Origin: a virus
Virus record (IMG/VR): IMGVR_UViG_3300032236_001128
Coordinates: 1-39,830 of that record
DNA length: 39,830 nucleotides
Reading direction: 5' to 3' (one strand)
Shown here: one piece after another, positions 2,018 through 27,911 of the stretch
Position numbering within the stretch: the stretch's first letter is position 1
How the letters are laid out: every line of letters starts with the position of its first letter
Notes under the pieces: model-generated
Databases searched by the model: none
Told to the model about the DNA's origin: nothing
What the model saw: only the letters and a program-made list of their open reading frames with translations
Translations under genes and position numbers: made by a program

Positions 2018-2678
2018 AGACTGGCGTAAAGCCTACCTGGCAAGTAAACGAGGACACTTGACCAGGTTTTTGGCAAAAACCAAAGAACGTGCCAAAGCGC
2101 AAAACCTGCCGCACGACATTGACCTAGAATATTTAGAATCTATTGCTGGTCTGCACTGCCCAGTGTTTGGCACGCCGTTTGTTTGGGGCCAAGGTAACGG
2201 TGCGCACCCTTACCGGCCATCAGTAGATCGCATCATACCGGAACTGGGATACGTCAAAGGCAACGTGGCTTTTATCTCACTGAAAGCAAACACGATTAAG
2301 CAGGACGTCACAGAAAAAGAATTGTACGCAGTAGCAGATTGGCTGCATGAGGCTAGAAAGAAAGTAAATGTTAACGAGAGACCAGCTACACCCGTATCAG
2401 AAGGAACTGATAGCCAAAGCGAGCACGATGCCAAACGTCGGGCTCTTCTTGCCGCCCGGCTTAGGGAAGACCGCAACCACCCTGACAATCATAGCGGAAC
2501 AATTCCAGGGCAAGACGCTGATCATCGCGCCCAAGCGAGTAGCGGAGACAGTGTGGGACAGCGAGGTGAAGAAATGGGAACATTTGAAATCCTTGAAAGT
2601 CTCGAAAATTTTAGGGACGCTTACGCAGAGGCTGCAGGCCTTAGACCAAGAGGCAGACGTATATCTGATAAACCTTGA
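2007..2678 (+). CDS. HNH-type endonuclease-like protein with out-of-frame tail
   Basis: The likely start is GTG at 2007 with GAGGA at 1994-1998. Residues 50-110 hold the pattern CPVFGTPF, then PSVDRIIPELGYVKGNVAFI and KANTIKQDVT. This is typical of a phage HNH-like family (Cys-Pro-x-hydrophobic-Gly, Asp-Arg-Ile-x-Pro, Gly-x-Val-x-Gly-Asn-Val, Ala-Asn-x-x-Lys). It probably cuts or nicks DNA. Homologues, as I know them, end near the ADWLHEARK helix, about residue 118. Here the frame stays open a further 100 residues while the helicase gene, in another frame, has already begun at 2368. The extra part is Arg/Asp/Ser rich and may be an accident of frame. Confidence 0.65.
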   Translation: MENKDWRKAYLASKRGHLTRFLAKTKERAKAQNLPHDIDLEYLESIAGLHCPVFGTPFVWGQGNGAHPYRPSVDRIIPELGYVKGNVAFISLKANTIKQDVTEKELYAVADWLHEARKKVNVNERPATPVSEGTDSQSEHDAKRRALLAARLREDRNHPDNHSGTIPGQDADHRAQASSGDSVGQRGEEMGTFEILESLENFRDAYAEAAGLRPRGRRISDKP

Positions 2679-3711
2679 GAACGTGGTATGGCTCTGTGGC
2701 CTTTCAGATAAGTTAGTGTTCACTAACTTAGTAATAGATGAGAGTAGCCGTTTTAAGGATCCTAGCACCAAGCGATTTAAGGCACTCAAAAAGCATTTAA
2801 AGGGCTTCCAGAGGCGTTTAATTCTCACCGGCACACCTACCCCTCAGGGCATGCAAGATCTCTGGTCCCAGGTGGGTATATTGGACTTAGGCGAGCGTTT
2901 GGAGACCAGCTTGACCCGCTTTAGGGATAAGTATATGCAACCAGACCAAATGAACCGCCATACACGTGTGGTATATAGCTGGAAATTTAAGAGTGGATGC
3001 GATGAGATTGTTAAGAATAAAATTTCAGATATTTGTTTTAGTCTTAAGGCTGAGGATTATCTGCAGTTACCTAGCTGTACTTCGCTTTATCATAAAATTG
3101 AAATCGACAAAAACGTAAGGGCAAAATACGATGAACTTAGAAAAGACATGGTCGTTGACATCAAGAAAGAAAAGATCACAGCTCCAACAGCAGCGGCATT
3201 GGCGAACAAGCTCCTCCAGTTTACATCGGGAGCGGTTTATAACGAAGAAGGACAGGCTCAAGAAGTACACCGTTCTAAACTGGAATATCTTGAGTCGATC
3301 ATGGAAGAGTCCTCTTCCCCTACATTGGTATTCTACCATTTCAAACACTCCCTCGACAGGATACGCCTTTCGTTCCCGCAGGCTGTGGTGCTGGACGATG
3401 ACAACATTGAAGCGTGGCGTAGTGGCAAGATTCGTATGCTCCTTGCCCATCCCCAAAGCGGAGGAATCGGGCTCAATCTTCAGTGCAACATTGGAGACAC
3501 AGCACAAACGGTGTGGTTTGATCTACCATGGAGCTCAGAGAATTACATCCAAGCCAACGCACGTATTTACCGCCAAGGGCAAGAAAAACCGGTTATTATA
3601 CACCACCTAACATTGTCTAATAGTATTGACGAACAGGTGGTCAAAGTTTTGGACGGTAAAATAAATTTGCAAGACGCCCTTTTAGACACCCTAAATTTTG
3701 CATTATTATAA
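2368..3711 (+). CDS. SNF2/DEAD-type helicase
   Basis: This 447-residue protein has a full superfamily 2 motif series. Walker A is PPGLGKT (Lys34), motif II is DESS at 124-127, motif III is LTGTPTPQ at 153-160, motif V is GGIGLNL, and motif VI is QANARIYRQGQ near residue 400. The HPYQ near the N-terminus is the Q-like motif of SNF2 proteins. It is the usual length of compact phage SNF2 helicases that travel with VRR-NUC and family A polymerase. It probably remodels or unwinds DNA during replication or recombination. The last codons (TTTGCATTATTATAA, residues FALL then stop) are also a copy of the phage promoter-like motif. The ACP gene starts two bases after the stop. Confidence 0.92.
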   Translation: MLTRDQLHPYQKELIAKASTMPNVGLFLPPGLGKTATTLTIIAEQFQGKTLIIAPKRVAETVWDSEVKKWEHLKSLKVSKILGTLTQRLQALDQEADVYLINLENVVWLCGLSDKLVFTNLVIDESSRFKDPSTKRFKALKKHLKGFQRRLILTGTPTPQGMQDLWSQVGILDLGERLETSLTRFRDKYMQPDQMNRHTRVVYSWKFKSGCDEIVKNKISDICFSLKAEDYLQLPSCTSLYHKIEIDKNVRAKYDELRKDMVVDIKKEKITAPTAAALANKLLQFTSGAVYNEEGQAQEVHRSKLEYLESIMEESSSPTLVFYHFKHSLDRIRLSFPQAVVLDDDNIEAWRSGKIRMLLAHPQSGGIGLNLQCNIGDTAQTVWFDLPWSSENYIQANARIYRQGQEKPVIIHHLTLSNSIDEQVVKVLDGKINLQDALLDTLNFALL

Positions 3712-3714
3712 GCA
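3697..3714 (+). promoter_or_regulatory. phage promoter-like motif, copy 2 (over helicase stop codon)
   Basis: TTTGCATTATTATA is exact, followed by AGCA. The motif encodes the last residues and stop of the helicase and ends at the first base of the ACP start codon. Transcription from here would give an ACP message with almost no leader, or would start inside the ACP gene, so it may mainly serve the ketosynthase and the genes after it. Confidence 0.6.
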
Positions 3715-3998
3715 TGGACAAATTAGAACTCTTTAACGCTTTGATCACCGTGGTGACGCCCGTCAATTCAATGGGCGCCCATGCTGATTCATTGGACCAA
3801 CCACTAGCAGAGACAGGCCTAGACAGCCTGGACCTGTTGATGATGGCTATCTATCTGAGCGATCTATGGGGCGCTCCTGAGGAGGCCGTTAAAGACATGC
3901 AGCCAGTTACCGTGGGCGACATGATTGATTATATTATTGCGCATAAAACTAAAGAGCCGCCTGCAACGATTGCAGAGGCCCTGGAGTTAGTGTCGTGA
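3714..3998 (+). CDS. acyl carrier protein
   Basis: The 94-residue product has the phosphopantetheine attachment motif GLDSLDLL, with Ser38 placed as in bacterial AcpP (about residue 36). Acidic helices II and III surround it, and a hydrophobic helix (VTVGDMIDYIIAH) lies near the end. The holo form would carry acyl groups as thioesters in the cytoplasm. It should need the host phosphopantetheinyl transferase, since none is visible here. The C-terminus is about 15 residues longer than AcpP (EPPATIAEALELVS), possibly a docking tail. The stop TGA overlaps the GTG start of the ketosynthase (GTGA at 3995-3998), so the two are translationally coupled and almost certainly work together. The family is clear; the substrate is unknown. 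Confidence 0.85.
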   Translation: MDKLELFNALITVVTPVNSMGAHADSLDQPLAETGLDSLDLLMMAIYLSDLWGAPEEAVKDMQPVTVGDMIDYIIAHKTKEPPATIAEALELVS

Positions 3999-5101
3999 AT
4001 ATTTACCTTACAGATTATCGTACGGCGTCAACCACTCAGACAGAGATGCTTGAGGACGTTGACTATCCGCAGCGTGTGCACTGGTTCCCTGAGACGTATG
4101 CCAAGACAAAGACTGGCTTAGTCTATGCACCGCACAAGTTAGCCGATAAAGTTTTAGATCCTAAGCTGTTAGAAGACTTGCGCAGCCGTCCAGGTAAGAC
4201 AGGTTTTATCCTGGCAGCAGGTAACTCACATTTTGCTGGGATCAACCCAAAAGATCCGCCTGAGAATCGTTTAACGTACGACTATAAGTTTTTAGCGTTA
4301 ACATTGACCCAGGTATACGCCGGACGTATAGCGCAGGCGTGTGGTGCAAACGACATGGTAATTACAGATGCCAGCGCATGCGCATCATCGTTGAAGGTAA
4401 TGATGAACGTCATAGAGATGTTTAGACTGTATGGCTTTGATCGTGTGATTGTATTAACCGTGGAAGATTGCGTAAGCAATTTAGTCTTAAAGTTTTTTGG
4501 TGAATCAAAAGCCAGTCTTACAAAAGATTTAGAAGACCAAGGCATCAAGCCATCGGCTTTTGATGACGTGAATTATGGCTTTAACATCGGCCAGGGAGCC
4601 GCCCTGGCAGTCTTTGAAAATGCTAAGTACGCACATAACTCTAAGGCACAACTCCTAGGTGCCTACAGTGCGTCAGAGATTAGCACCAACGCAATTGGTC
4701 AGCGTGAGGATGGTCAAGGATTTGTCAGGGCGGCAGCCGGTGCTCTTCAGATAGCTAATATATCATCGAGTGATATACAAGTCGTCAAGGCACACGGCAC
4801 CGGCACAAAGTCAAACAACGCTGCAGAGAAAGCAGCGATACAACAGATTTTCCACCACAAGCCCGTGGTCACATCGTTCAAGCAACGTATTGGCCACACG
4901 ATGGGTGCAAGTGGATTGTTAGAGACGCTGTTGTTACTAGACAGTATTAAGATTGGTCTAGTACCAGCGATTCTTAACCGCACCAGGGAAGACCCGGTGT
5001 TTTTGTCAACAGGAGCGGAGATAGACGGAAGTGCAAACATTCTTAGTCTTGCCGCAGGTATGGGCAACATTTACTCAGCAGCAATTTTTAAAACATTATG
5101 A
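3995..5101 (+). CDS. beta-ketoacyl-ACP synthase (KAS I/II type)
   Basis: This 368-residue thiolase-fold condensing enzyme carries the whole KAS I/II catalytic set: nucleophile Cys129 in DASACASS, His267 in AHGTGT, Lys296 in SFKQR and His301 in GHTMGASG. It should join an acyl group held on Cys129 with malonyl-ACP. The N-terminus differs from FabF (the first 60 residues look unrelated) and the protein is some 40 residues shorter than E. coli FabF. The usual GFGG gatekeeping loop near the C-terminus is replaced by AAGMGNIYS, so Met stands where Phe is expected by my alignment. The start is GTG 3995, overlapping the ACP stop; GGAG lies at about 3983. Its stop overlaps the next ATG (ATGA, 5098-5101). 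No reductase or dehydratase gene is nearby, so it probably feeds on or diverts host fatty-acid intermediates. Confidence 0.88.
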   Translation: MNIYLTDYRTASTTQTEMLEDVDYPQRVHWFPETYAKTKTGLVYAPHKLADKVLDPKLLEDLRSRPGKTGFILAAGNSHFAGINPKDPPENRLTYDYKFLALTLTQVYAGRIAQACGANDMVITDASACASSLKVMMNVIEMFRLYGFDRVIVLTVEDCVSNLVLKFFGESKASLTKDLEDQGIKPSAFDDVNYGFNIGQGAALAVFENAKYAHNSKAQLLGAYSASEISTNAIGQREDGQGFVRAAAGALQIANISSSDIQVVKAHGTGTKSNNAAEKAAIQQIFHHKPVVTSFKQRIGHTMGASGLLETLLLLDSIKIGLVPAILNRTREDPVFLSTGAEIDGSANILSLAAGMGNIYSAAIFKTL

Positions 5102-5409
5102 GAACAAAAACCAAACACAAAGTAAACGCAATTGCACCAAGACTATCAGATGAAGACATTGACCCGATTGAACAAGACGATAGCGACAACATATCGACTT
5201 TGGTTGTTGAAGGTTGGCTCCCCTGGGATCCGGAAGATATTTTAGACATCAAGCGTTTAATTGTAGATAAGATGCCATCAAAACAGCAGTACATTTTAGA
5301 ATCATTTTTAGATGGCCTTAACTACATGGACCTGGGTGTTACTGAAAAGTATTGGCGTTATCATTTTGCAAAAGGCGTTGAGTTTATTAAAAAGGAATTA
5401 AAGCTATGA
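5098..5409 (+). CDS. small sigma-70 region 4-like helix-turn-helix protein
   Basis: In this 103-residue protein, residues 1-45 are polar and acidic. Residues 58-102 (MPSKQQYILESFLDGLNYM, then DLGVTEKYWRYHFAKGVEF) follow the layout of sigma factor region 4: a helix ending in an xxQxxILxxFLxG turn, a recognition-type helix with WRYH in place of VRYH, and a final basic helix. No region 2 is present, so it is not a full sigma factor. It could bind RNA polymerase or the phage promoter-like motif, but that is inference. Start and stop overlap both neighbours (ATGA), so it is coupled to the ketosynthase. Confidence 0.5.
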   Translation: MRTKTKHKVNAIAPRLSDEDIDPIEQDDSDNISTLVVEGWLPWDPEDILDIKRLIVDKMPSKQQYILESFLDGLNYMDLGVTEKYWRYHFAKGVEFIKKELKL

Positions 5410-10662: not shown

Positions 10663-12537
10663 ATGGATCAGTATCAAGAGTACATTGCCGCCAGCCGTTA
10701 CGCACGTTTTGTCGATGACAAACAACGACGTGAGACATGGGGCGAAACAGTAGACCGCTACGTGGATTATATCTTTAGTCGTACACCAGCAATCGCTGAC
10801 AAAACAGATTTAAAAACAGAAATTCGTAGTGCCATTTATAATCTTGATTTAATGCCGTCCATGCGTGCCATGATGACGGCTGGAAAGAGCGCAGACCGTG
10901 ATAATACTTGTGTGTATAATTGTAGTTATTTGCCTGTCGATGATGTTAAGTCGTTCGACGAAGCAATGTTTATCTTGCTTTGCGGAACCGGTGTCGGTTT
11001 TTCGGTGGAGTCCAAATATATATCCCATTTGCCGGAAGTGCCGGAGAAACTTTATGAATCAGAACACGTTATCAACGTTCACGACAGCAAAGAAGGATGG
11101 GCAAAAGCATTACGTTTACTCCTCGCTCACCTCTGGGCTGGAGAAATTCCGAAGTGGGACGTGTCCAATGTCCGTGCTGCCGGAGCACGACTCAAAACAT
11201 TTGGCGGAAGAGCTTCCGGGCCGCAACCATTAATTGATTTGTTTCAATTTACTGTAGCTACATTTAAACACGCACAAGGTCGCAAGCTAAACAGCTTAGA
11301 GTGCCATGACTTGATGTGCAAAATTGGTGAGGTGGTTGTAGTAGGTGGTGTACGCCGCTCTGCAATGATCTCGTTGTCTGATCTTGATGATGAAAGGATT
11401 CGTCATGCTAAAGCAGGACCTTGGTGGGAAACCGCTCCTCACCGTGCACTCGCCAATAATAGCGCGGTGTATAATGAAACTCCTACAGTGGGCAAGTTTA
11501 TGGAAGAGTGGCTATCTCTCTACAATAGTCATTCGGGAGAACGGGGCATTTTCAATCGTGAAGCCGCCAAAAAAACTGTTGAGAAATACGGTCATCGTGA
11601 CCCTAACTACGAATTCGGTACTAATCCTTGTAGCGAAATTATTCTTCGTCCGTATCAATTTTGCAATCTTACCGAGGCGGTTGTAAGACATGACGACACC
11701 AGAGAAACGTTACTGCGCAAAGTGCGCATCGCCTCTATCTTGGGTACCATCCAGTCTACCTTTACAAAGTTCCCCTATTTGCGGAAGGTGTGGCAGAGAA
11801 ATACTGAAGAAGAGCGGTTACTGGGTGTTTCCCTCACCGGCATCTATGACAACCCCCTTTTGGTTAAACAAGGAGACGAATTAAATGGATTACTTACCGA
11901 GCTTAGAGAGGAAGCTAGAAGAGCCAATGAGGAGTTTGCGGGACTGCTTGGAATACCTAAGAGTAGCGCAATTACTTGCGTTAAACCCTCCGGAACAGTC
12001 AGTCAACTTGTTGATAGCGCTTCTGGAATCCACCCGCGCCACTCTAAATTCTACATCCGCAGAGTTAGAGGAGATAAGAAAGACCCTCTCACCCAATTTT
12101 TAATCACACAAGGAGTTCCAAATGAAGCATGCGTTTACAAACCTGATCAAACGGTTGTTTTCAGTTTTCCAATCAAAGCGCCAGACGGTATCACTCGATC
12201 CGACGTCACTCCAATTGATCACCTTTCTCTCTGGCTTACGTACCAAAGACACTGGTGTGAGCACAAGCCGTCGGTCACGATCTCCGTCGAAGAAAAAGAC
12301 TGGCCAAGCGTCGGCGCCTGGACGTGGGAAAACTTCTCAGAAATTTCCGGAGTTTCCTATCTCCCGTACGACGGAGGCACCTACCGCCAAGCCCCGTACG
12401 AAGAGTGTAGCCAAGAAGACTACGAAAGCCTCAAAGCCAGCATCCCCAAAATCAACTGGGAAGAGCTCAAAGAAAACACAGACAACGTCGAAGGTGCGCA
12501 GCAGCTAGCATGCTCTGCCGGCGTCTGTGAGATCTGA
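10663..12537 (+). CDS. nrdJ: monomeric class II (adenosylcobalamin-dependent) ribonucleotide reductase
   Basis: This 624-residue enzyme makes deoxyribonucleotides for phage replication. The layout is that of the Lactobacillus-type monomeric ribonucleoside-triphosphate reductase. NPCSEI holds thiyl-site Cys323 and Glu325. Cys334 lies 11 residues on (QFCNLTEAV), the same spacing as Cys408/Cys419 there. NCSYLP holds a probable partner Cys87. The C-terminal CSAGVC holds shuttle cysteines 617 and 622, again with the known five-residue spacing. It should need host-supplied B12 coenzyme and thioredoxin, neither encoded here. It has a leader after the terminator at 10596-10627. The last 400 bases appear more GC-rich than the rest. 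The DUF1289 gene starts three bases after the stop. Confidence 0.93.
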   Translation: MDQYQEYIAASRYARFVDDKQRRETWGETVDRYVDYIFSRTPAIADKTDLKTEIRSAIYNLDLMPSMRAMMTAGKSADRDNTCVYNCSYLPVDDVKSFDEAMFILLCGTGVGFSVESKYISHLPEVPEKLYESEHVINVHDSKEGWAKALRLLLAHLWAGEIPKWDVSNVRAAGARLKTFGGRASGPQPLIDLFQFTVATFKHAQGRKLNSLECHDLMCKIGEVVVVGGVRRSAMISLSDLDDERIRHAKAGPWWETAPHRALANNSAVYNETPTVGKFMEEWLSLYNSHSGERGIFNREAAKKTVEKYGHRDPNYEFGTNPCSEIILRPYQFCNLTEAVVRHDDTRETLLRKVRIASILGTIQSTFTKFPYLRKVWQRNTEEERLLGVSLTGIYDNPLLVKQGDELNGLLTELREEARRANEEFAGLLGIPKSSAITCVKPSGTVSQLVDSASGIHPRHSKFYIRRVRGDKKDPLTQFLITQGVPNEACVYKPDQTVVFSFPIKAPDGITRSDVTPIDHLSLWLTYQRHWCEHKPSVTISVEEKDWPSVGAWTWENFSEISGVSYLPYDGGTYRQAPYEECSQEDYESLKASIPKINWEELKENTDNVEGAQQLACSAGVCEI

Positions 12538-18973: not shown

Positions 18974-20758
18974 TTAATCAGCCTTTTTGTTCTTAGATTT
19001 GTATCTGTCTACTAACGCTGCGCCAGGATGATCATCTGGGCCTGCTGTCAATGGTTTTACAATGCCTTTGTATGTGTTTAAGAAATGCTGTTCGGCTTTC
19101 TTGCTAAACGCAAGATACTCTGGGCTGGTTTCAAACTTATTAAAGTCTGCAAATTCACCACCGTGGGTCTCAGCCCATCTTTCAAACATTTCGTTCTTCT
19201 GTTGTTGGAAGTCTGCAGCATCACGAATCAATGCAGCATTTTGTTTGTTTACTGCAGCAGGCATTTCGGTACCAATACCTTTGGCGCCCATAGCCATCTT
19301 CTCAAGGCCAATACCCATACGAGCGCCTTTGAACACGTCAGCAGCAAAGTCAATACCTAACTTCTGTGCAGCGCTTTGTACGTCCTTATATGCTTTTCTT
19401 TCTGTGTCATTCAGATAGTTAGAGTACAATGCTTTTTCTGTTTTGTCTGCGCCAACACCAGGGATAAAGTCACCGATTGTGGTAAGACCAGTTGCAATAG
19501 AATCTGAACCGTGTGCAAAGCCCATAACCTTATTAAGTTTTGGATTGTCTGCAATATCAATAACGACCTGTGCGGTTGGCTTAGTAGTTCTTGCTGCTTC
19601 TGCCAATTCACGCATCTTAGTCAAACGCTCACCAGCGCCTTCTTCAGACTTAGCCATTTGTTTACCACGGCTAGTAACCAATGTCTCACCAGCTTTAGCA
19701 CGAATCTCATTAGCTTCTTTAGATGTTGGATCTAAACCAGCTGCACGGATTTGAGCCTCAACAGGTGATTCTGCTGCAGTTGGTGCGTTGATTTTAGGAA
19801 TTGGTGTTGTGTGCGGCAGTGCTGGCTTTGCCGCTGCAGGTGCAGCAGGAGCCGCTGCAGGAGCTGCGGTAGGTGCTGCCGCCGGGGCTGCTGCGGGTGC
19901 TGCTACAGGAGCTGCTACAGGAGCTGCAGGACGAGCCGCTGGGGCTGCTGCAGGTGCACCAGCTGCAGGTGCACCACCTCTTACAAATGCTCCGGCTGAA
20001 CCTAATGGTGTTGTTTGCATTGTGCCAGTTGCACCACGTACGTCGTGTGGAGTAAATGCACTTGCGCCTACAGCTTCGGTCAGCATAATTTGTGGAACCA
20101 TTGACTTATCAATCATGCCATTTTGTAGCATGTAGTTAACCTTCTTGATAATGTCTGGGTTCTTAGCGTTTGCTGCTAAATAAGATTGAATTGCTTTTTG
20201 TGCGCCAACTTGATCAGTCTGTGCTTGAACAGCAATAGATTGTCTTAAACCGGGATCTTGAACTAAGTCTAACAAACCACCACTTGCTTGTGGGGCTGCA
20301 CCAACGCCAGGTGCGCCTGTTGGGGTTGTTGAACCAGCTGCGCCAGGGGTGCCACCAAACAATTGACGTTGTAAATTTTGTGCTTGTTCTTGTGCCACTT
20401 TGTATTGGGCCAAGTCACGCTTCATGCCAAACGTAGTTAAGGCTTGCTCTTCACGCTCTTTAGCACGACGAGACAACGCTTCACCAGGGCCTTGAACGCC
20501 ACCAGACCACCAGGCTGTTGCATCTTTTAAATTCTCCATAAAGCTGTTGCGTTGAGCTTCACGCTCTGCAATCATCTTTTGCATGTTTTCTAAAAGCTCC
20601 GGAGTTACTCCAGTACCAGGACCAGTTGGTGTTGGCAAGAATTTTGAAGCTGCTGCTTTTGCAGAAAGAGGAGCTTGTTTTTCTGTAGACGTGTCTTCAG
20701 TGTCAGCCTCAACAGTGCTGCCAGCAGCATATTTTTTAATGTTGTCTAATCCAGCCAT
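18974..20758 (-). CDS. internal virion-type protein with Ala/Pro linker, 594 aa
   Basis: I use ATG 20758 because GGAGAAGG lies just before it; a start six codons earlier is unlikely. The N-terminus (MAGLDNIKKYAAGSTV) resembles the [YF]-A-x-G-G-x-V tag of neighbouring genes. Residues 50-135 are charged helices with a probable coiled coil. Residues 261-316 are an almost pure Ala/Pro linker. The C-terminal 280 residues are helical and may form a second domain (KLGIDFAADVFKGARMGIGL, EMFERWAETHGGEF). The two-domain, flexible-linker design and its place among similar genes suggest an ejected internal protein. No enzyme motif seen. Confidence 0.55.
   Translation of the reverse strand: MAGLDNIKKYAAGSTVEADTEDTSTEKQAPLSAKAAASKFLPTPTGPGTGVTPELLENMQKMIAEREAQRNSFMENLKDATAWWSGGVQGPGEALSRRAKEREEQALTTFGMKRDLAQYKVAQEQAQNLQRQLFGGTPGAAGSTTPTGAPGVGAAPQASGGLLDLVQDPGLRQSIAVQAQTDQVGAQKAIQSYLAANAKNPDIIKKVNYMLQNGMIDKSMVPQIMLTEAVGASAFTPHDVRGATGTMQTTPLGSAGAFVRGGAPAAGAPAAAPAARPAAPVAAPVAAPAAAPAAAPTAAPAAAPAAPAAAKPALPHTTPIPKINAPTAAESPVEAQIRAAGLDPTSKEANEIRAKAGETLVTSRGKQMAKSEEGAGERLTKMRELAEAARTTKPTAQVVIDIADNPKLNKVMGFAHGSDSIATGLTTIGDFIPGVGADKTEKALYSNYLNDTERKAYKDVQSAAQKLGIDFAADVFKGARMGIGLEKMAMGAKGIGTEMPAAVNKQNAALIRDAADFQQQKNEMFERWAETHGGEFADFNKFETSPEYLAFSKKAEQHFLNTYKGIVKPLTAGPDDHPGAALVDRYKSKNKKAD
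19811..19978 (-). repeat. Ala/Pro low-complexity linker repeat
   Basis: This encodes residues 261-316 of the 594-residue protein, built from AAPAA/VAAPAA-like units. At DNA level, GCAGCTGC- and GCTACAGGAGCT-type units recur, so the tract may vary in length between relatives. Confidence 0.75.
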
Positions 20759-20760
20759 GA

Positions 20761-21915
20761 TTAGCCTTCTCCCCAATTGCTTCCACTATAATCTATATTA
20801 CCAGAGCTATCAGTTGGCATAGATGGCTCAATGGTTGGAACAGGAGTATCACTACCACTGTTTGGAATACTACCATCCGGTAAATAATATTGGCCAGGAC
20901 CACCACCCGCTGGAGTAATGTATTTGCTTCCATCCGGATTAACAGTCATTTGACCACCATCAGCTAATGTATATGTACCAGGGTTTGCGTTACCGCTAGT
21001 ATCTGTTGTAATGCCAGATCCAGTACTACCGCTGCTTGGATTTGTGTTAGAACTACCACCAAACAAATTACCTAATGGGCCGCTTGAGCTAAACAAACCA
21101 CCAGCAACAGCAGGCTTATAGTTTGGATTTGGGGTTTTTCCGTCAGCTAAATAGGGACTACCTTGAGCAGGGGTACCAGAACCAAACAATGAACCTAATA
21201 AGCCGGTTGGGTTTTGACCACCAAGTGCAGTTACCAAACCAGCTACTTGGTTTAGTGGAGATAATTGTGTTTGATTTTGTACGGTTGTAGGAGCTTGGAT
21301 ACCACCCAATACTTTACCGTAGTTAGATACGTTAGTAAATGGAGCAGCTTGTTGGTATTGACCAACGGTAAGAGCATTGTTAATACCTTGTTGTGCAACG
21401 TTACCAGCACCAATACCAGCTTGCACACCTGTTTGTTGGTTAGACAATGCAGCTTGCATTTGTGCAGCTTGTTGTTGGGCAACGGCGTCACCGATAGCTT
21501 TGTTGTATGCTGTATCGCCACGCAAGCTACCAAAGTTACCAGAGGCAATAGAAGCAGCATCAACAGGGGCTGTAATGTTTGGCATTAACTGCTTAAGTTG
21601 TTGGTCCTGAGCTTGGAACAAACCACCTAAAGCAGTTTGTGTATTAGGAGTTACTTGACCAGATGCGCTAGTAATCCATGGATTGGCTGCGCCAGAAGCA
21701 ATATTTTGCAGCGTGCCTTGGGCTGTTGTAAAGGCATTAGTTGGACCAGACAGCTGATTAACAGCTTGTTGCGCCACAGTATTTTGTGGTGTAGGTGCTT
21801 GGCCTAATGCTTGGCCAGCTTGGTTAACAACGTTCTGTTGCGCGGTATCGAACCACGCGGGCATTGTGGTTGTTTGTTGCGCTGTGTTTGATATAATATC
21901 GTTTAAGCCAGCCAT
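20761..21915 (-). CDS. Gln/Ala-rich internal virion-type protein, 384 aa
   Basis: The product is rich in Gln, Ala, Asn, Gly and Thr. The first 220 residues look helical (AGQALGQAPTPQNTVAQQAV, QQQAAQMQAALSNQQ). The rest is Gly/Ser/Pro rich and probably unfolded (SSNTNPSSGSTGSG), ending in NIDYSGSNWGEG. Proteins of this composition lie beside the tail genes of podoviruses with P22-like ejection proteins. Function by analogy only. It starts two bases after the 960-residue gene ends and begins MAGLNDII, similar to the MAGLDNIK start of the next gene. Confidence 0.55.
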   Translation of the reverse strand: MAGLNDIISNTAQQTTTMPAWFDTAQQNVVNQAGQALGQAPTPQNTVAQQAVNQLSGPTNAFTTAQGTLQNIASGAANPWITSASGQVTPNTQTALGGLFQAQDQQLKQLMPNITAPVDAASIASGNFGSLRGDTAYNKAIGDAVAQQQAAQMQAALSNQQTGVQAGIGAGNVAQQGINNALTVGQYQQAAPFTNVSNYGKVLGGIQAPTTVQNQTQLSPLNQVAGLVTALGGQNPTGLLGSLFGSGTPAQGSPYLADGKTPNPNYKPAVAGGLFSSSGPLGNLFGGSSNTNPSSGSTGSGITTDTSGNANPGTYTLADGGQMTVNPDGSKYITPAGGGPGQYYLPDGSIPNSGSDTPVPTIEPSMPTDSSGNIDYSGSNWGEG

Positions 21916-21917
21916 GA

Positions 21918-24800
21918 TTATGCTTTCATTGTCCGTTTTGCATCTAATAAATAGGCCAATGGGCCTTTACTTTTTGGAGGTAATTCTTCGCCGTTTGAAT
22001 TAGCGTCTTTTCTTACTACTTTTAAAAACTGATCTAATACACTTGCGCCGGCTTCATTACTGCCGTTGCCAAGTTTAGACACTACATCCGCCGGGATTAC
22101 AAACTCACCGTTTGCCAACATGGCAGCAACAGAGTCGCTTGTACCGTCACCTTCGCCTTGAACGTAACGGTTGTCCATGGCGTTCAAACCGCCTTCAGAG
22201 AAAAATGTTGGGTTATGTCCTTCTGGACCAATCTCGCCACCTTCAGCATGTGACTGAATAGCAGCGCCAGGTAAGCCAGTAAGGATATAATTAATCTGTG
22301 CCTTGGTTAAACCAGGTGTTAATGACTTGTACAAACCAGAACTTACGCTGTCACCTGATGAACCAGCAGCAAAAGGATCATAGCCAGTAGAACCACCGCT
22401 TGCAAAATTAGGTTCTGGGCTCGATGTTTCCTGTATGTTAGGAATGCCAGTTAAGTTGTAATCCATTCTTTGTGTCAATCCAGGTGTTAGGTTTTGTATT
22501 CCGCCAGTTGGGCTTTGTTGTAAAGCACTTGTTGTGGTTGTCGCTGGTGCAGTTGTAGTTGCTCCACCAACAACAGGAGCTGTTATCGCTGGTAATGTCC
22601 AAGGTGTTGCTGGAGCAGTTGCTGGAGCAGTTGTTTTAACAGGCAAAGTATTCATTTGCCCGCCGCCACTACTTGGTGCTGTTGTTGTACCGCTGCCACT
22701 ACCAATTGCGTTATATACTTTACCAAGATCTACGCCGCTACCACCGCTTCCGGTGCTTGGCGCTGTTCCATCGCCAGTACTTGGTGCTGGTGTTTCACTA
22801 GCCAATCCAGGGCCGCCAGGTGCTGGTGGTTGATCTGCTATTGGCTGTGGGTTTGCAACATCTTGCTTCCAAGCATCATACGTCGCTGGAACCATATCAA
22901 TAGCTGGACGAATAGATCCGTCAGGATTTGTGCCACCTTGGAACTGAGCCAAGTATTCTTGGTATGCTGGATCATCTTTACCGGCAGCATACGGATCCAC
23001 TGGTGTAGTATCCGCAGCGGGTGCGTTAGCATCCACTGGTGGTGTGTTAGGGTCAAATGACGGAGGCGGGCTTGATACAGTTACTGTGCCTTTAGGGGTA
23101 TTTGGATCTGTTACCACTGGTGTGGTTGGCCCTGCGCCAGCGTCTGTTACAGAGCCAGTGGTATTTGCTGATGCCACTGCAGTATTGTCAACCGGTGCGC
23201 TGGTTGGTGTTGTATCTTGTTGGCCAAACAATTGAGCCAATGTGGCATTAATCGTTGCAGTCTTTTCATCTTGACCGCTTTTCAATGAATCTAAATAAAC
23301 GTTCTGAGCACGCTCATCTAATCCAGAAATATTTGGTGCTACTTTTATTGCACTTGCATCATCTAATCCAGTAGTAATAGCTGTCTTATATGCTGTTTGA
23401 TCTGTGGTAGATAAATTATTAACCTGATTAGCAATATCTAATGATGCTGTTAAATCGTTGGAGCTATTGTAGTTACGAGTAAATGTGCTTTGTGCAATAG
23501 TAGACATATCATTTACTTTAGTAGATGTGTCTAATGCCGTTGTTACATCTGTGCCGTTACCATAAATGCTGGTAAATGCTTTTTGTGCATCTGGTGACAT
23601 TGCAGCTACTTTAGTTGCTGCATCAGTTAATGCTGTTGATTCTTTATTTAGTAAATCGTTCTTAGCTGTGTAGTCTGATTTAATGGTATCTAACTGAGAA
23701 GCAGCATCGGCTAACTTACTGTTACTTGCATTAAATGTATCTAGCTTAGTTTGGTAAGTAGCAGCATCTGTGTTATACTTATCAGTAGCGGCATTTAATG
23801 TTGGGATCATGGCGTTAGCCTGATCTGCTAAACTATTTGCTAAATCTGCATTACCAGCAGCTTTTGCATCATCATATTGCTTTTGTAAATCAGCAAACTT
23901 ATCAGCTTGTACTTTGTATTCATCGTAAGAAGCCTTAGCTGTGTCTTGTGCTGCTTGAGCTTCTTTTTGTGCTGGAACAACTGTGCTGTCCAACATGTCT
24001 TTGGTTTGAGCAAATTGTTGATTGTACTTATCAGCAATACTGTTTACATCATTCCAGGCTGATTTAATTTGACTACCAGCTTGGCTTAAAGTTGTGGAGA
24101 TAATATTGTTAACAATATTAGCTGTAGGATCTTTGCCAGTAATTGCACCTTTAGTTAAAGCACCGCCAATAGTACCAGCAAGTTTTGAACCGGTTGCGTC
24201 TGTTATTTCACCACCAACATAAGTACCAGCACCAGAAGTTAAACCAGCTGTCAATGCTTTAGTTACGTCGCCAGTTACTGCCAGATTAGTTGCAGCACTT
24301 GCTGCAGCATTACTAATTGCCGCATTTAATGGGCCAGTAATAGTCGTTGGGTTAGTAAAGGTTGTCTCACCGCCCGCTGTTTGCGTCATAGTGCTGCCGT
24401 CACTATAGTTGTAAACTGTAGAACCATCGGCTCCAGTTTCAACAGAAGTTAATGTAGACTCAGCACCAGAAGCGAGCATATCACTTACACCACTGGCAAT
24501 ACCCATACCTGCGTATGAGATACCAGCAGATAGCGCAGCTTGACCTAAGTCTCCACCATGCGCTAATACATCGACTGCAGAAATAGCCGGTAATAAATAC
24601 AATTGGCCCGTGGCCACAGCAGCTACTTTTGCAATCGTACCAATAGGATCATTTACCGCAGCTTGACCCACTTGTTCTAGTACATGACCAACAGAACTCG
24701 CGGCTCCTTCTACAGCTTGCACAGTATCTTGTGCAATTGTGCCGATTGTTTGACCTACGTCACTAATTGCGTCACCAATCGATTCAACCACTCCACCCAT
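21918..24800 (-). CDS. large internal virion protein with coiled coil, 31-aa repeats and tape-measure-like C-terminus
   Basis: In this 960-residue protein, residues 1-110 are Gly/Ala/Val rich and could insert into membrane. Residues 255-400 form a long coiled coil (Lys/Asp/Gln/Ala heptads). Residues 401-524 are four tandem 31-residue repeats. Residues 530-800 are Pro/Thr/Ser/Gly rich and probably disordered. The last 130 residues carry tags (HAEGGEIGPEG, FFSEGGL) and GTSDSVAAMLANGEFVIPAD, a motif frequent near the C-terminus of tail tape-measure proteins. The combination suggests a structural protein that spans or is ejected through the tail. TAATG overlap with the gene upstream. Confidence 0.6.
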   Translation of the reverse strand: MGGVVESIGDAISDVGQTIGTIAQDTVQAVEGAASSVGHVLEQVGQAAVNDPIGTIAKVAAVATGQLYLLPAISAVDVLAHGGDLGQAALSAGISYAGMGIASGVSDMLASGAESTLTSVETGADGSTVYNYSDGSTMTQTAGGETTFTNPTTITGPLNAAISNAAASAATNLAVTGDVTKALTAGLTSGAGTYVGGEITDATGSKLAGTIGGALTKGAITGKDPTANIVNNIISTTLSQAGSQIKSAWNDVNSIADKYNQQFAQTKDMLDSTVVPAQKEAQAAQDTAKASYDEYKVQADKFADLQKQYDDAKAAGNADLANSLADQANAMIPTLNAATDKYNTDAATYQTKLDTFNASNSKLADAASQLDTIKSDYTAKNDLLNKESTALTDAATKVAAMSPDAQKAFTSIYGNGTDVTTALDTSTKVNDMSTIAQSTFTRNYNSSNDLTASLDIANQVNNLSTTDQTAYKTAITTGLDDASAIKVAPNISGLDERAQNVYLDSLKSGQDEKTATINATLAQLFGQQDTTPTSAPVDNTAVASANTTGSVTDAGAGPTTPVVTDPNTPKGTVTVSSPPPSFDPNTPPVDANAPAADTTPVDPYAAGKDDPAYQEYLAQFQGGTNPDGSIRPAIDMVPATYDAWKQDVANPQPIADQPPAPGGPGLASETPAPSTGDGTAPSTGSGGSGVDLGKVYNAIGSGSGTTTAPSSGGGQMNTLPVKTTAPATAPATPWTLPAITAPVVGGATTTAPATTTTSALQQSPTGGIQNLTPGLTQRMDYNLTGIPNIQETSSPEPNFASGGSTGYDPFAAGSSGDSVSSGLYKSLTPGLTKAQINYILTGLPGAAIQSHAEGGEIGPEGHNPTFFSEGGLNAMDNRYVQGEGDGTSDSVAAMLANGEFVIPADVVSKLGNGSNEAGASVLDQFLKVVRKDANSNGEELPPKSKGPLAYLLDAKRTMKA
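23229..23600 (-). repeat. four tandem 31-residue coding repeats
   Basis: Units start MSPDAQKAF, MSTIAQSTF, LSTTDQTAY and LDERAQNVY. Each has a Gln at position 6, an aromatic residue at position 9, and Asn/Gly/Asp residues around 15-18 before a second helix. They are exactly in register at 31 residues (93 bases). Confidence 0.7.
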
Positions 24801-25297
24801 TATAGAGCTCCTTGTGGTTGTGGGGCTGCTTGATCTGGCAACGCACCCTGTTGTTTAGTGTCACCTAGGTTTACAACAACCTGGTATTGACCATCTTTGG
24901 TTTTCTTGACGTTGTATCCCATGTTAGGAAATGGTTGATTGCGCCTAACATAAGCAAAAATGTTTAAAAGGGATGGCTCTTTAAATTGGGTAATAAGTTG
25001 TTTAAAACCAGCTACTCCAATAGCTTTTGTAAATGTCAAACAGTTTTTTAAATAGTTTGGCATGGTGTCTGCATTAATAGCACGGAAAATGCCAATGTTT
25101 GCTTGAACCGGTGAAGGGTGCACCATAAATAAAGTGTTGCCCTCACGTATCAAAACACCCTTCATGTTGTAGCATTCAGAAGCTAAGCTCGCCTTAATCT
25201 GCTCGGCAGTATGCCCGCCGCCAATTTCCTTGGCAGCGATGGCTATAATCTCATCCTGTGTGAGCTTTTGGTGCTTTGAATCTACAAAAGAAGACAT
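24800..25297 (-). CDS. hypothetical virion-associated protein, 165 aa
   Basis: The product begins with a polar helix (SKHQKLTQDEIIAIAAKEIG). A mixed alpha/beta region follows (VLIREGNTLFMVH, NIGIFRAINADTMPNYLKN, FAYVRRNQPFPNMGYNV), reminiscent of an acetyltransferase-size fold but without a clear CoA motif. It ends in a Gln/Pro/Ala tail. It overlaps neighbours by TAATG on both sides, so it is co-translated with the large internal protein. Possibly a chaperone or core protein; unproven. Confidence 0.55.
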   Translation of the reverse strand: MSSFVDSKHQKLTQDEIIAIAAKEIGGGHTAEQIKASLASECYNMKGVLIREGNTLFMVHPSPVQANIGIFRAINADTMPNYLKNCLTFTKAIGVAGFKQLITQFKEPSLLNIFAYVRRNQPFPNMGYNVKKTKDGQYQVVVNLGDTKQQGALPDQAAPQPQGAL

Positions 25298-25449
25298 TAC
25301 GCAGTAATGTTTTTTGCCTTAGCGGCCAATGCCTCTTCTACTGCCTTAGCAAAAGCTGGGTCTACTTTTTGATTATCTTTGTTACGAGCCATGATAGCAT
25401 CAGCTACCGCTTTGTCGTTTAGATATTTCATGGTTTGTTGGCCGTGCAT
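25297..25449 (-). CDS. 50-aa basic helical protein, first gene after a promoter-like motif
   Basis: ATG at 25449 is preceded by an ideal AAGGAG (25456-25461). The 50-residue product starts MHGQQTMKYLNDKAVADAIM and ends VEEALAAKAKNITA, Ala/Lys rich and helical. Its TAA shares bases with the next ATG (TAATG). It lies 27 bases downstream of the promoter-like motif at 25476-25493. Strong signals make it a real gene; no family is recognised. Confidence 0.75.
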   Translation of the reverse strand: MHGQQTMKYLNDKAVADAIMARNKDNQKVDPAFAKAVEEALAAKAKNITA

Positions 25450-25475
25450 TTTGACTCCTTGGGTTGGGTTTCTTC

Positions 25476-25493
25476 TATATATAATAATACAAA
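25476..25493 (-). promoter_or_regulatory. phage promoter-like motif, copy 7 (- strand)
   Basis: The - strand reads TTTGTATTATTATATATA, one base different from the consensus (T for C). It follows a terminator T-tract and precedes the internal virion protein genes. Confidence 0.7.
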
Positions 25494-25513
25494 AAACAGG
25501 GGGTTAGCGCCCT
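25494..25513 (-). terminator. intrinsic terminator fused to promoter-like motif (- strand)
   Basis: On the - strand AGGG, an eight-base loop and CCCT are followed by GTTTTTT. The stem is short (four pairs), but it lies directly after the stop of the 25516-25767 gene, and its T-tract runs into the motif, as at three other places. Confidence 0.5.
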
Positions 25514-25515
25514 AT

Positions 25516-25767
25516 TTATTTAGTTGGACCGTTGATAATCATGGTAAATTGGTAAGCCCAATCGTCCCATTTATCGAACAAATCCGGGTCTGGAACGGGG
25601 TAAACCTCGAACCTTGGAAGCTGAGAAACGTTCTTGGCAACTATTTTCCAATTGTCTTCCTGGCTGTGGCCAATCGGTTCTGTGCCAAAATACAAAATTA
25701 GATTGCCGTTCCAGTCTTCCCAGCTCATATTAACTGGAACAACTGGAAAAAATATCTGCTCAGCCAT
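25516..25767 (-). CDS. small virion-cluster protein, 83 aa
   Basis: The product is rich in Trp, Pro and Asp (MSWEDWNGNLILYFGTEPIG, WDDWAYQFTMIINGPTK) with a mixed beta character. It is coupled to the upstream virion gene by TAATG and ends at a terminator, so it is the last gene of its transcription unit. Such a compact protein next to tail genes may be a minor structural or assembly protein. I do not recognise the family. Confidence 0.6.
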   Translation of the reverse strand: MAEQIFFPVVPVNMSWEDWNGNLILYFGTEPIGHSQEDNWKIVAKNVSQLPRFEVYPVPDPDLFDKWDDWAYQFTMIINGPTK

Positions 25768-27911
25768 TATGGGCGCTCATCGCCGTATTCTGCAGTAATC
25801 AATAAACGGCCCATTTCGTAGTTACCGTCAATTACGTTAGAAGTAAATGTTAAAGTTAATTCACGATGCTCTACACGCAGGTCAATCTTACCAGTATCTG
25901 GATCAAAGTAAAATGGTCCTGAGTTTTCTACTGGTCCTCTGGCAAACTTACGACCATCTACTTCCATAGTCATAGTACCAGTCTGTACAAAGTCTGGCTC
26001 TACACGACGTAAGTGCATACGGCGATTTGGACCAGAGGTTGTATCTTGGGAGGGCGTACCACCAACCCAACTAATATCGCAAGTAGTAAAACTAGAAGTA
26101 ATAGCTGTTTCACTAGATAGGCTTACCTTATTGTAACCATACTCTTGTTGCCAAATTGGATAGCCACCCTCCATGTAGTACACCACATCGCCAGCAATTA
26201 CACCAGGCACAAAGTTAGTTGTTGCAGTTACCAAAGTAACGCCAGGTGCTGGAACATAACTATCAATAATTAATTGACTGTTATCTACTGTATAAACTGG
26301 AGTCGCTGGGTTACCAGCGTTTGAGAATGAGAAATGGTCGCCGGGAGAGAATGATGGAGTCTGGTCACCAGCTAAATAAAACTGATTAGCGGCAGGAGCA
26401 GGCTCACCACTTGGAGTAGCAATTAAAGTTAATGGTTGGCTATAGGTTACATCATAATCCCAACCAGCCCAGATAGGTGATGGGAAAATCTCTGTTGTGT
26501 AACCACAAGAACGGCGAGCGCCATCTGCTTCTCCAGCGTCATACCAGATCTTATCTTTTACGTTATAGATAATTGCATCAGTACATTCTGTAGCTGAACC
26601 GCGTGGATAAAAGAACCAGATCTCGTTGTAGCGCGGTACCTTAGTGGCCCATACTTTTTGGCGTTGGGTAAAGTTGATATTATCAAATATCCAGTTTACG
26701 TTTTTGTCATTAGGTAGGACGCTTACCACACCGTTGTATTGATAGAAACGGTCAACGCCTAACCAATAGTACACGCCGTCCATCTCAACAAAGCAAGACG
26801 AGGACATAGTTGAGATCTGGCTAGAAATAATATCATAGCGCCAATATAAGCCAGTTTGGCCAGTAAATGACACACGAATTAATGAGTCAGTAGCCCAAAA
26901 CAAACCAGATGGTGAGTTTGTACCACCACGAACCGGAATGCCTTTAACAATCTTAGAAGAAGACATATTAATCTGGTTGGCAGTTGCACCGTTCCAGTCG
27001 GTCAATGTCTGTGTTCCGTAAGCTGTCTCTACGTGGTTGTTTGCAATATAGCCGTTATCACCATATACAAAGATATAAGGATACAATACACAAACACCGC
27101 CATTAACACTAATAGGTTTATATGTTGGATTTTGACCGGTGCTGTCTGCAAGCCCATAGAAGTTCCACACACCAGCGCTGGCTGGTAAAATATCGCCTAC
27201 TAAAACTTGCGTCTCTTCGGCATTGTCAATGTTTTGTAAATTTAAACCAGGATGTGCTAATACTTTTAAAGCGCCGCCCACCGGAGAATATTGTAGGTCA
27301 AATTGCCATAGATTGCGTGAGTCTGGCGTATAGTGTGTGTTGTATAACCACACATTTGACTTAGTTCCAGTGATCGTTTCAGTAACTGTTACAACCGTAT
27401 TAGGGCTTGTAAAAACAGAACCAGTTACATTATATACTGTTGCTGGGTTTGTCTGAGCAAATATAACTTTAGTGCCAGTTGGAAATACTGATGTGTAATC
27501 TTTTGGTGTGGTAGCACCACCGTAAATTGTAAAGGTGTGCGCTGTGTTAGATGCCACAGCAAATTGAGAATACCCTGGTAATATGTTAGCAAGATATGGT
27601 CCGGAACCAACACCGATGGTGTTACCAGTAATAAATACATCTAATCCTGTTGCGTTACCAACAAAGATATAGTTAACGCCGTTGTACGGGCTAACAATCA
27701 TACCACGAGGAACACCAGTAAATGTACCAAAAATCTGACGATAGCCACCTATTTTTCTAGGTGTGCCACGCTGAAAACGGCACCATACGCCATCTTCATA
27801 TTCACGTGATTCAAAGTTTGTACCGTCACGCTTAATACCTGGTTGTACTCCAAGGGTATAAACTAAGTTATACTGTTCTTGTGATGTTCCAGAATCTTGT
27901 TGCTGTGCCAT
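25767..27911 (-). CDS. large beta-rich virion protein, possible tail stabilisation or needle-complex protein
   Basis: This 714-residue protein is rich in Gly, Tyr, Val, Asn and Trp, typical of beta-propeller or beta-helix virion proteins. Near the N-terminus, CRFQRGTPRKIGGYRQIFG followed by YNGVNYIFVGNATGLDVF resembles P22 gp10-type packaged-DNA stabilisation proteins, which open with a path of short beta blades. The C-terminal part has GPNRRMHLRRVEPDFVQTG and a final TAEYGDERP. It lies between adaptor-like proteins and the internal virion genes. The family is uncertain; structural role is likely. Confidence 0.55.
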   Translation of the reverse strand: MAQQQDSGTSQEQYNLVYTLGVQPGIKRDGTNFESREYEDGVWCRFQRGTPRKIGGYRQIFGTFTGVPRGMIVSPYNGVNYIFVGNATGLDVFITGNTIGVGSGPYLANILPGYSQFAVASNTAHTFTIYGGATTPKDYTSVFPTGTKVIFAQTNPATVYNVTGSVFTSPNTVVTVTETITGTKSNVWLYNTHYTPDSRNLWQFDLQYSPVGGALKVLAHPGLNLQNIDNAEETQVLVGDILPASAGVWNFYGLADSTGQNPTYKPISVNGGVCVLYPYIFVYGDNGYIANNHVETAYGTQTLTDWNGATANQINMSSSKIVKGIPVRGGTNSPSGLFWATDSLIRVSFTGQTGLYWRYDIISSQISTMSSSCFVEMDGVYYWLGVDRFYQYNGVVSVLPNDKNVNWIFDNINFTQRQKVWATKVPRYNEIWFFYPRGSATECTDAIIYNVKDKIWYDAGEADGARRSCGYTTEIFPSPIWAGWDYDVTYSQPLTLIATPSGEPAPAANQFYLAGDQTPSFSPGDHFSFSNAGNPATPVYTVDNSQLIIDSYVPAPGVTLVTATTNFVPGVIAGDVVYYMEGGYPIWQQEYGYNKVSLSSETAITSSFTTCDISWVGGTPSQDTTSGPNRRMHLRRVEPDFVQTGTMTMEVDGRKFARGPVENSGPFYFDPDTGKIDLRVEHRELTLTFTSNVIDGNYEMGRLLITAEYGDERP

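Follow-up and report, generated by a model that had tools for sequence, protein, structure and literature searches.

The question raised by this locus is what an acyl carrier protein and a condensing enzyme, encoded side by side, would do for a phage. The window, that is, the whole stretch of DNA analysed here, comprises 39,830 nucleotides (positions 1 to 39,830 of IMG/VR virus record IMGVR_UViG_3300032236_001128), and the two genes, whose open reading frames share a GTGA overlap, are as follows.

3714-3998, plus strand: phage acyl carrier protein (ACP), 94 aa, with phosphopantetheine site Ser38 in GLDSLD and a conserved C-terminal extension (TKEP...EEAL)
3995-5101, plus strand: phage beta-ketoacyl-ACP synthase (KAS), 368 aa, with a GTG start, C129/H267/K296/H301 and the gate motif GMGN instead of GFGG

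Against the Pfam PP-binding model the ACP scored 14.9 bits (E 0.032), below the cut-off of 20.8. A profile of the phage ACP matched solved ACPs (best E 1e-5), and hhalign placed its Ser38 on the DSLD serine of E. coli AcpP. The D37-S38 dipeptide was invariant, with Ser38 retained in 80/80 ACPs found beside KAS homologues. The AF2 model (pLDDT 90) predicted a helical, ACP-like bundle (helices 3-14, 38-52, 56-60 and 67-76) with an extra C-terminal helix (86-93). The protein is thus classed, on sequence and profile matches, as a divergent member of the acyl carrier proteins.

The KAS exceeded the gathering score of 20.8 for both Pfam domains (Ketoacyl-synt_C, 1.9e-19, 70.2 bits; ketoacyl-synt, 3.4e-12, 47.0 bits), and profile and multiple alignments equated its C129/H267/K296/H301 with C163/H303/K335/H340 of E. 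coli FabF, the profile alignment spanning KAS residues 98-334 at 28% identity. Across 82 KAS homologues H267, K296 and H301 were invariant, C129 was present in 81/82, and the gate motif was GMGN throughout, not the GFGG that contains Phe400 in FabF, with Met356 invariant in all 82. The AF2 model (pLDDT 88.9) adopted a thiolase/ketosynthase fold; among solved structures its top match was 1tqy (KS/CLF), and this structure and FabF both matched at E 1e-21 to 1e-20 with a TM of about 0.8. These matches assign the KAS to the beta-ketoacyl synthase superfamily (FabB/FabF-like). Its best NCBIfam model was fabF (5e-33), and orthology with FabF (KAS II) was not supported, given a score of 114 bits that lies far below the 493.75 cut-off of the fabF equivalog TIGR03150 and the absence of the GFGG gating motif. 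A single replacement of Cys129 by Arg, possibly a sequencing error, was seen on an AcpS-carrying contig (L048, 5720-6829). The preliminary description of this DNA had reported an ACP and KAS pair with all key residues and a GTGA overlap, on which reading frames, the KAS Pfam matches and the FabF and AcpP alignments now agree.

That description had also supposed such a pair to be rarely reported in phages, a view that the size of the family overturns: a single-sequence scan of IMG/VR recovered 323 viral KAS relatives and a profile scan at least 569, and members were already present in databases. The named record MW202545 (Caudoviricetes sp. ctpbd312) encodes a KAS of 63% identity annotated as 3-oxoacyl-ACP synthase, and its ACP is labelled 'hypothetical protein' in the deposited record. 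The deposited start of that KAS (20154; gene at 20001-21098) lies about 50 codons late relative to the conserved start. A further relative is held in BFVD (A0A6J7X0R1), and phrog_35856, whose function is listed as unknown, matched the KAS along 307 residues (E 6.6e-29). Additional KAS matches in records named 'Listeria', 'Enterococcus' or 'Staphylococcus phage' (OR846916, OR846591 and others) were set aside as ordinary bacterial FabF-like genes in unverified assemblies; these records also carry AcpS-like genes and probably reflect host contamination.

The search for the pair in related phage genomes found the ACP directly upstream of the KAS in nearly all relatives examined, and all 29 of 29 virus records carried a single KAS. 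One contig of 37514 bases (G027; L113, L114) gave two KAS matches, which are the end fragments of one gene, one at each contig end; this suggests a near-complete, circularly permuted genome cut within the KAS. Median pairwise dN/dS was 0.066 for the KAS (281 pairs) and 0.18 for the ACP (197 pairs), values that place both genes under purifying selection. Decay into pseudogenes is ruled out for the family by these ratios, the exceptions being remnants in L341/L343 and the Cys129 replacement noted above. The broken remnants named earlier as a possible sign of a non-functional module were confined to that one small lineage, with hundreds of intact copies elsewhere, and the portrayal of the pair as a functional-looking two-gene module is upheld by its intact catalytic residues and strong purifying selection.

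In a tree with FabF, FabB and polyketide synthase (PKS) ketosynthases, built from a small taxon sampling, the phage KAS grouped as one clade with support 100, its branch measuring 2.8 substitutions per site against 1.5 for the PKS group. Rather than falling among thiolase relatives without condensing residues, the phage enzymes stand apart as a clade of their own in which every catalytic residue of FabF/FabB is present. In 84,980 species genomes of bacteria and archaea, a scan based on two short conserved peptides, and hence non-exhaustive, returned only one close KAS match. That match lies on contig L083 (JAGYJQ010000016.1), which is binned in a Balneolaceae MAG and carries phage coat/capsid and tail genes in addition to ACP, KAS and the late gene c14 described below, and by this gene content is a binned phage contig or a prophage; no close KAS relative was detected in 296 genomes from the phylum of that MAG. 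Recent capture from a host was rejected, as these scans returned no close cellular relative and the branch is very long.

Two genomic positions were found for the pair. Type A genomes, the window among them, are arranged as helicase c4, ACP, KAS and c2, whilst type B genomes have the order c13, c28, ACP, KAS, c14 and c16 within the late virion (tail/ejection) block. The corresponding features of the window, beyond the pair, are listed here.

2368-3711, plus strand: c4, helicase of the SNF2 type bounding the early slot on the left (context)
5098-5409, plus strand: c2, uncharacterised 103-aa protein bounding the early slot on the right (context); directly behind the helicase in phages without the pair
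25767-27911, minus strand: c13, structural protein of the virion (phrog_3287), adjoining c28 on its left (context)
25516-25767, minus strand: c28, 83-aa protein bounding the late slot on the left (context)
25298-25515, minus strand: vacant late slot, the ACP-KAS site in type B; here just a 50-aa ORF (25300-25449)
24800-25297, minus strand: c14, uncharacterised protein of 165 aa found together with the pair; may serve as acyl acceptor, transferase or another kind of partner
21918-24800, minus strand: c16, large tail/ejection-block protein bounding the late slot on the right, beyond c14 (context)

The pair in the window is surrounded by an SNF2-type helicase upstream and by exonuclease, ribonucleotide reductase and DNA polymerase genes downstream, so its placement in a replication operon stands for the window; as a general home this location does not hold, since most other lineages carry the pair in the tail/ejection block. 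Type A late blocks are otherwise collinear with those of type B, with c28 and c14 either adjoining or flanking a tiny ORF (window 25298-25515; G004 (L150) and G002 (L157)). In the KAS tree, whose deep supports are weak, type B sequences lie at or around the base, and type A comprises a main clade of 61 plus a small clade in which two type A sequences are paired with two of type B. Because type B lies at or around the base, the late position is most simply read as ancestral. The single KAS per record and the collinear vacant late slot imply that the pair was relocated, not duplicated, and its retention after relocation indicates that what selection maintains is the pair and not its place.

The ribonucleotide reductase gene (window 10663-12537) shares 74% DNA identity over 294 bases with Roseobacter phage CRP-4, and c13, a late gene, is similar to its counterpart in Caulobacter phages. 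Together, these two likenesses hint at alphaproteobacterial hosts, a first guess that also fits the infection of Caulobacter by relatives.

The phosphopantetheinyl transferase reported as missing from the window was indeed not found there by a PF01648 search, yet the same search of the window plus 28 related records recovered AcpS in 2/29, where it lies beside the primase; its absence therefore does not extend to all relatives. The enzyme is 121 aa long and is encoded some 4.2 kb ahead of the pair, with a start that overlaps or adjoins the primase stop, and the copy in L047 (5409-5774) scored 54.2 bits against a PF01648 cut-off of 25. Relatives place AcpS about 1.2-1.9 kb upstream of c9, and with c9 starting at 1354 in the window, the expected site falls at or beyond the left contig end. 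AcpS was found again in further lineages. Among 15 longer records picked by helicase and not by KAS, AcpS occurred in 4/4 with a KAS and 0/11 without (Fisher p 0.0007). Over all loci with both sites visible, seven had AcpS and the pair, five AcpS only, three the pair only and 17 neither (p 0.018); both p-values overstate the evidence because the records are related. The five loci with AcpS only belong to one clade, in which the early slot is empty and the contigs stop short of the late slot. Given these AcpS neighbours in relatives, holo conversion of the phage ACP is likely, and most phages with a KAS, being without AcpS, would depend on that of the host.

A second gene that accompanies the pair is c14. 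In the gene-content comparison it was present in 17 of 22 related records with a KAS and in 0/5 without; the slot is off the contig in the remaining five, so that c14 occurs in 17/17 records in which its slot is visible, including six type A records in which it is distant from the pair. A further 79 c14 loci comprised 65 with a KAS directly upstream, 11 resembling type A late blocks and 3 that do not fit, namely L341 and L343, with a KAS remnant, and L319, without the pair. In L341 (4359-5271) and L343 (about 4660-5000) the short remnant lies between the ACP and an intact c14; the ACP is kept in L341, and in L343 its reading frame seems altered at the C-terminus. As c14 occurs without a KAS in G369 and beside a KAS remnant in G367, it is not strictly KAS-dependent.

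Searches of Pfam, PHROGs and PDB profiles returned no family match for c14. In relatives that lack the KAS, the place of c14 is taken by a GNAT-type acetyltransferase (phrog_1249, E 1e-12) or by a SET-domain protein (PF00856, 2e-5), or it is empty, as in two such records and in Caulobacter phage GB2A.

L254 4225-4677, L259 13356-13814 and L257 4652-5533: GNAT acetyltransferase or SET-domain protein at the c14 position in relatives without the pair

This position of the tail/ejection block may thus be a hot spot for protein-modifying enzymes. Profile comparison by hhalign detected no relation between c14 and GNAT proteins, but ACP-dependent GNATs of the RtxC kind would escape such a comparison: the HlyC/RtxC acyltransferases, which draw on acyl-ACP, adopt a GNAT fold although no homology can be detected in their sequences (PMC8339906). 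From its position, its co-occurrence with the KAS and the RtxC precedent, we conjecture that c14 could be an acyl-ACP-using transferase or acceptor.

For the pair itself we favour, at a probability of roughly 0.55, a dedicated phage acyl-carrier and condensation module that makes a phage-specific acyl group and does not boost bulk host fatty-acid synthesis. In support, the ACP and the condensing enzyme, a member of the FabF/FabB superfamily, are both intact and conserved as a unit, with AcpS alongside in several lineages. No FabG-type SDR (PF13561) was found in the window or in the 28 related records, bearing out the reported absence of a ketoreductase from the window, and a private product appears most likely because the phages have their own divergent carrier, sometimes their own AcpS and no FabG-type reductase. 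Under such a scheme, AcpS of host or phage would attach phosphopantetheine to Ser38 of the ACP, host FabD would load it with malonyl, and C129 of the KAS would be acylated from the host acyl pool; H267 and H301 would then decarboxylate the malonyl during condensation, leaving a 3-oxoacyl group on the phage ACP. Held off the host carrier, this phage-specific group could be reserved for a dedicated acceptor, with the co-occurring late protein c14 as the best candidate partner. Weighing against a dedicated module, most genomes with a KAS lack AcpS (2/29 have it, and three loci have the pair but not AcpS), one clade has AcpS with an empty early slot, and host FabG/FabZ/FabI could process the product, which would make the pair a fatty-acid module after all.

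Because host reductases could still act in this manner, the tuning of host membrane lipids persists as a rival, one to which we give a minority chance. The KAS would elongate host acyl chains and host FabG/FabZ/FabI would complete the cycle, shifting chain length or unsaturation in favour of replication or release. The closest characterised relatives in sequence and fold are FabF/KAS II and KasA, and a Rhodobacteraceae prophage fabG-acpP-fabF cluster has been interpreted in this way (PMC8224337), but that cluster includes fabG whereas no FabG-type SDR lies alongside the phage pair. An elongation booster would need neither a divergent ACP of its own nor AcpS, and the very long KAS branch, the altered GMGN gate and an inferred ancestral position among virion genes also argue against lipid tuning. 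That late slot, between c28 and c14, is consistent with a further reading, ACP-dependent protein acylation in phage assembly, in which the ACP and KAS (with AcpS) would supply an acyl group that c14 transfers to a virion or ejection protein, or receives as one. The constant presence of c14 where its slot is visible, type A included, its absence from relatives without a KAS, the GNAT-type or SET-domain genes that take its position there and the HlyC/RtxC precedent are all in keeping with this. We nevertheless regard it as improbable, for c14 has no family match and no profile relation to GNAT, occurs without a KAS or beside a remnant, is associated with the KAS in type B partly through mere adjacency, and has an empty slot in two KAS-lacking records and in GB2A. 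The full acylation pathway, in which AcpS charges the phage ACP, the phage-only ketosynthase builds an unusual acyl group and c14 passes it on or is itself the virion or ejection acceptor, is similarly doubtful.

Sabotage of the host would have surplus KAS and apo/holo phage ACP drain malonyl and phosphopantetheine, stalling host fatty-acid synthesis. Competition of a foreign ACP and KAS with the host's own is conceivable, and the present early position suits a takeover, but the late ancestral position does not, and a decoy would need neither AcpS nor invariant catalytic residues; we consider this very improbable. Slighter still are the prospects of a diffusible signal, whereby 3-oxoacyl groups would feed an acyl-homoserine-lactone-like molecule affecting lysis timing or neighbours: the 3-oxo group made by a KAS would stay in place if no ketoreductase came with it, but free 3-oxoacyl-ACP is expected to be reduced by host FabG, and the scanned proteins gave no match to a recognised signal synthase, LuxI-type or other.

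Compared with known systems, the phage KAS shares with FabF/FabB (KAS II/KAS I) a thiolase fold, the Cys-His-His and Lys residues and work beside an ACP, but it differs in its GMGN gate, its own deep branch and an identity of 27-28% over 235 residues only, the N-terminal part of the 368-aa protein being shorter and not alignable by profile. The Rhodobacteraceae prophages (PMC8224337) likewise carry a carrier and a condensing enzyme in phage genomes, in the E. coli operon order with fabG included, whereas the pair described here belongs to a phage-only family; identification with a fabG-linked fatty-acid AMG cluster was rejected because the linked ketoreductase is missing (no PF13561 match in 29 records). 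A minimal type II polyketide synthase (KS-CLF-ACP; 1tqy) has a KS and ACP gene pair and a similar fold in common with the phage system, but was discounted as there is no chain-length factor and only a single KAS per record. Caudoviricetes sp. ctpbd312 (MW202545) has the same family and gene pair, followed by c14, with the pair in the late tail/ejection block and not in an early operon. This kind of gene is therefore already known, because individual members have been deposited and fab genes were described from phages before (PMC8224337); no paper describing the ACP-KAS phage family was found in the open-access literature searched, and seemingly new against it are the deep clade confined to phages, the movement of the pair between its two slots, the association with AcpS and the co-occurrence with c14.

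A condensing enzyme with its own carrier is thus a stable and widespread part of an abundant phage group rather than a gene strayed from a host; in some lineages it goes together with a phage AcpS, and it can move between early and late blocks whilst staying single-copy. Should it make a phage-specific acyl group, this would constitute a phage biosynthetic pathway with a product that nobody has looked for, and with AcpS, ACP, KAS and the candidate partner c14 as a defined gene set, the question can be addressed in vitro and by mass spectrometry of virions.
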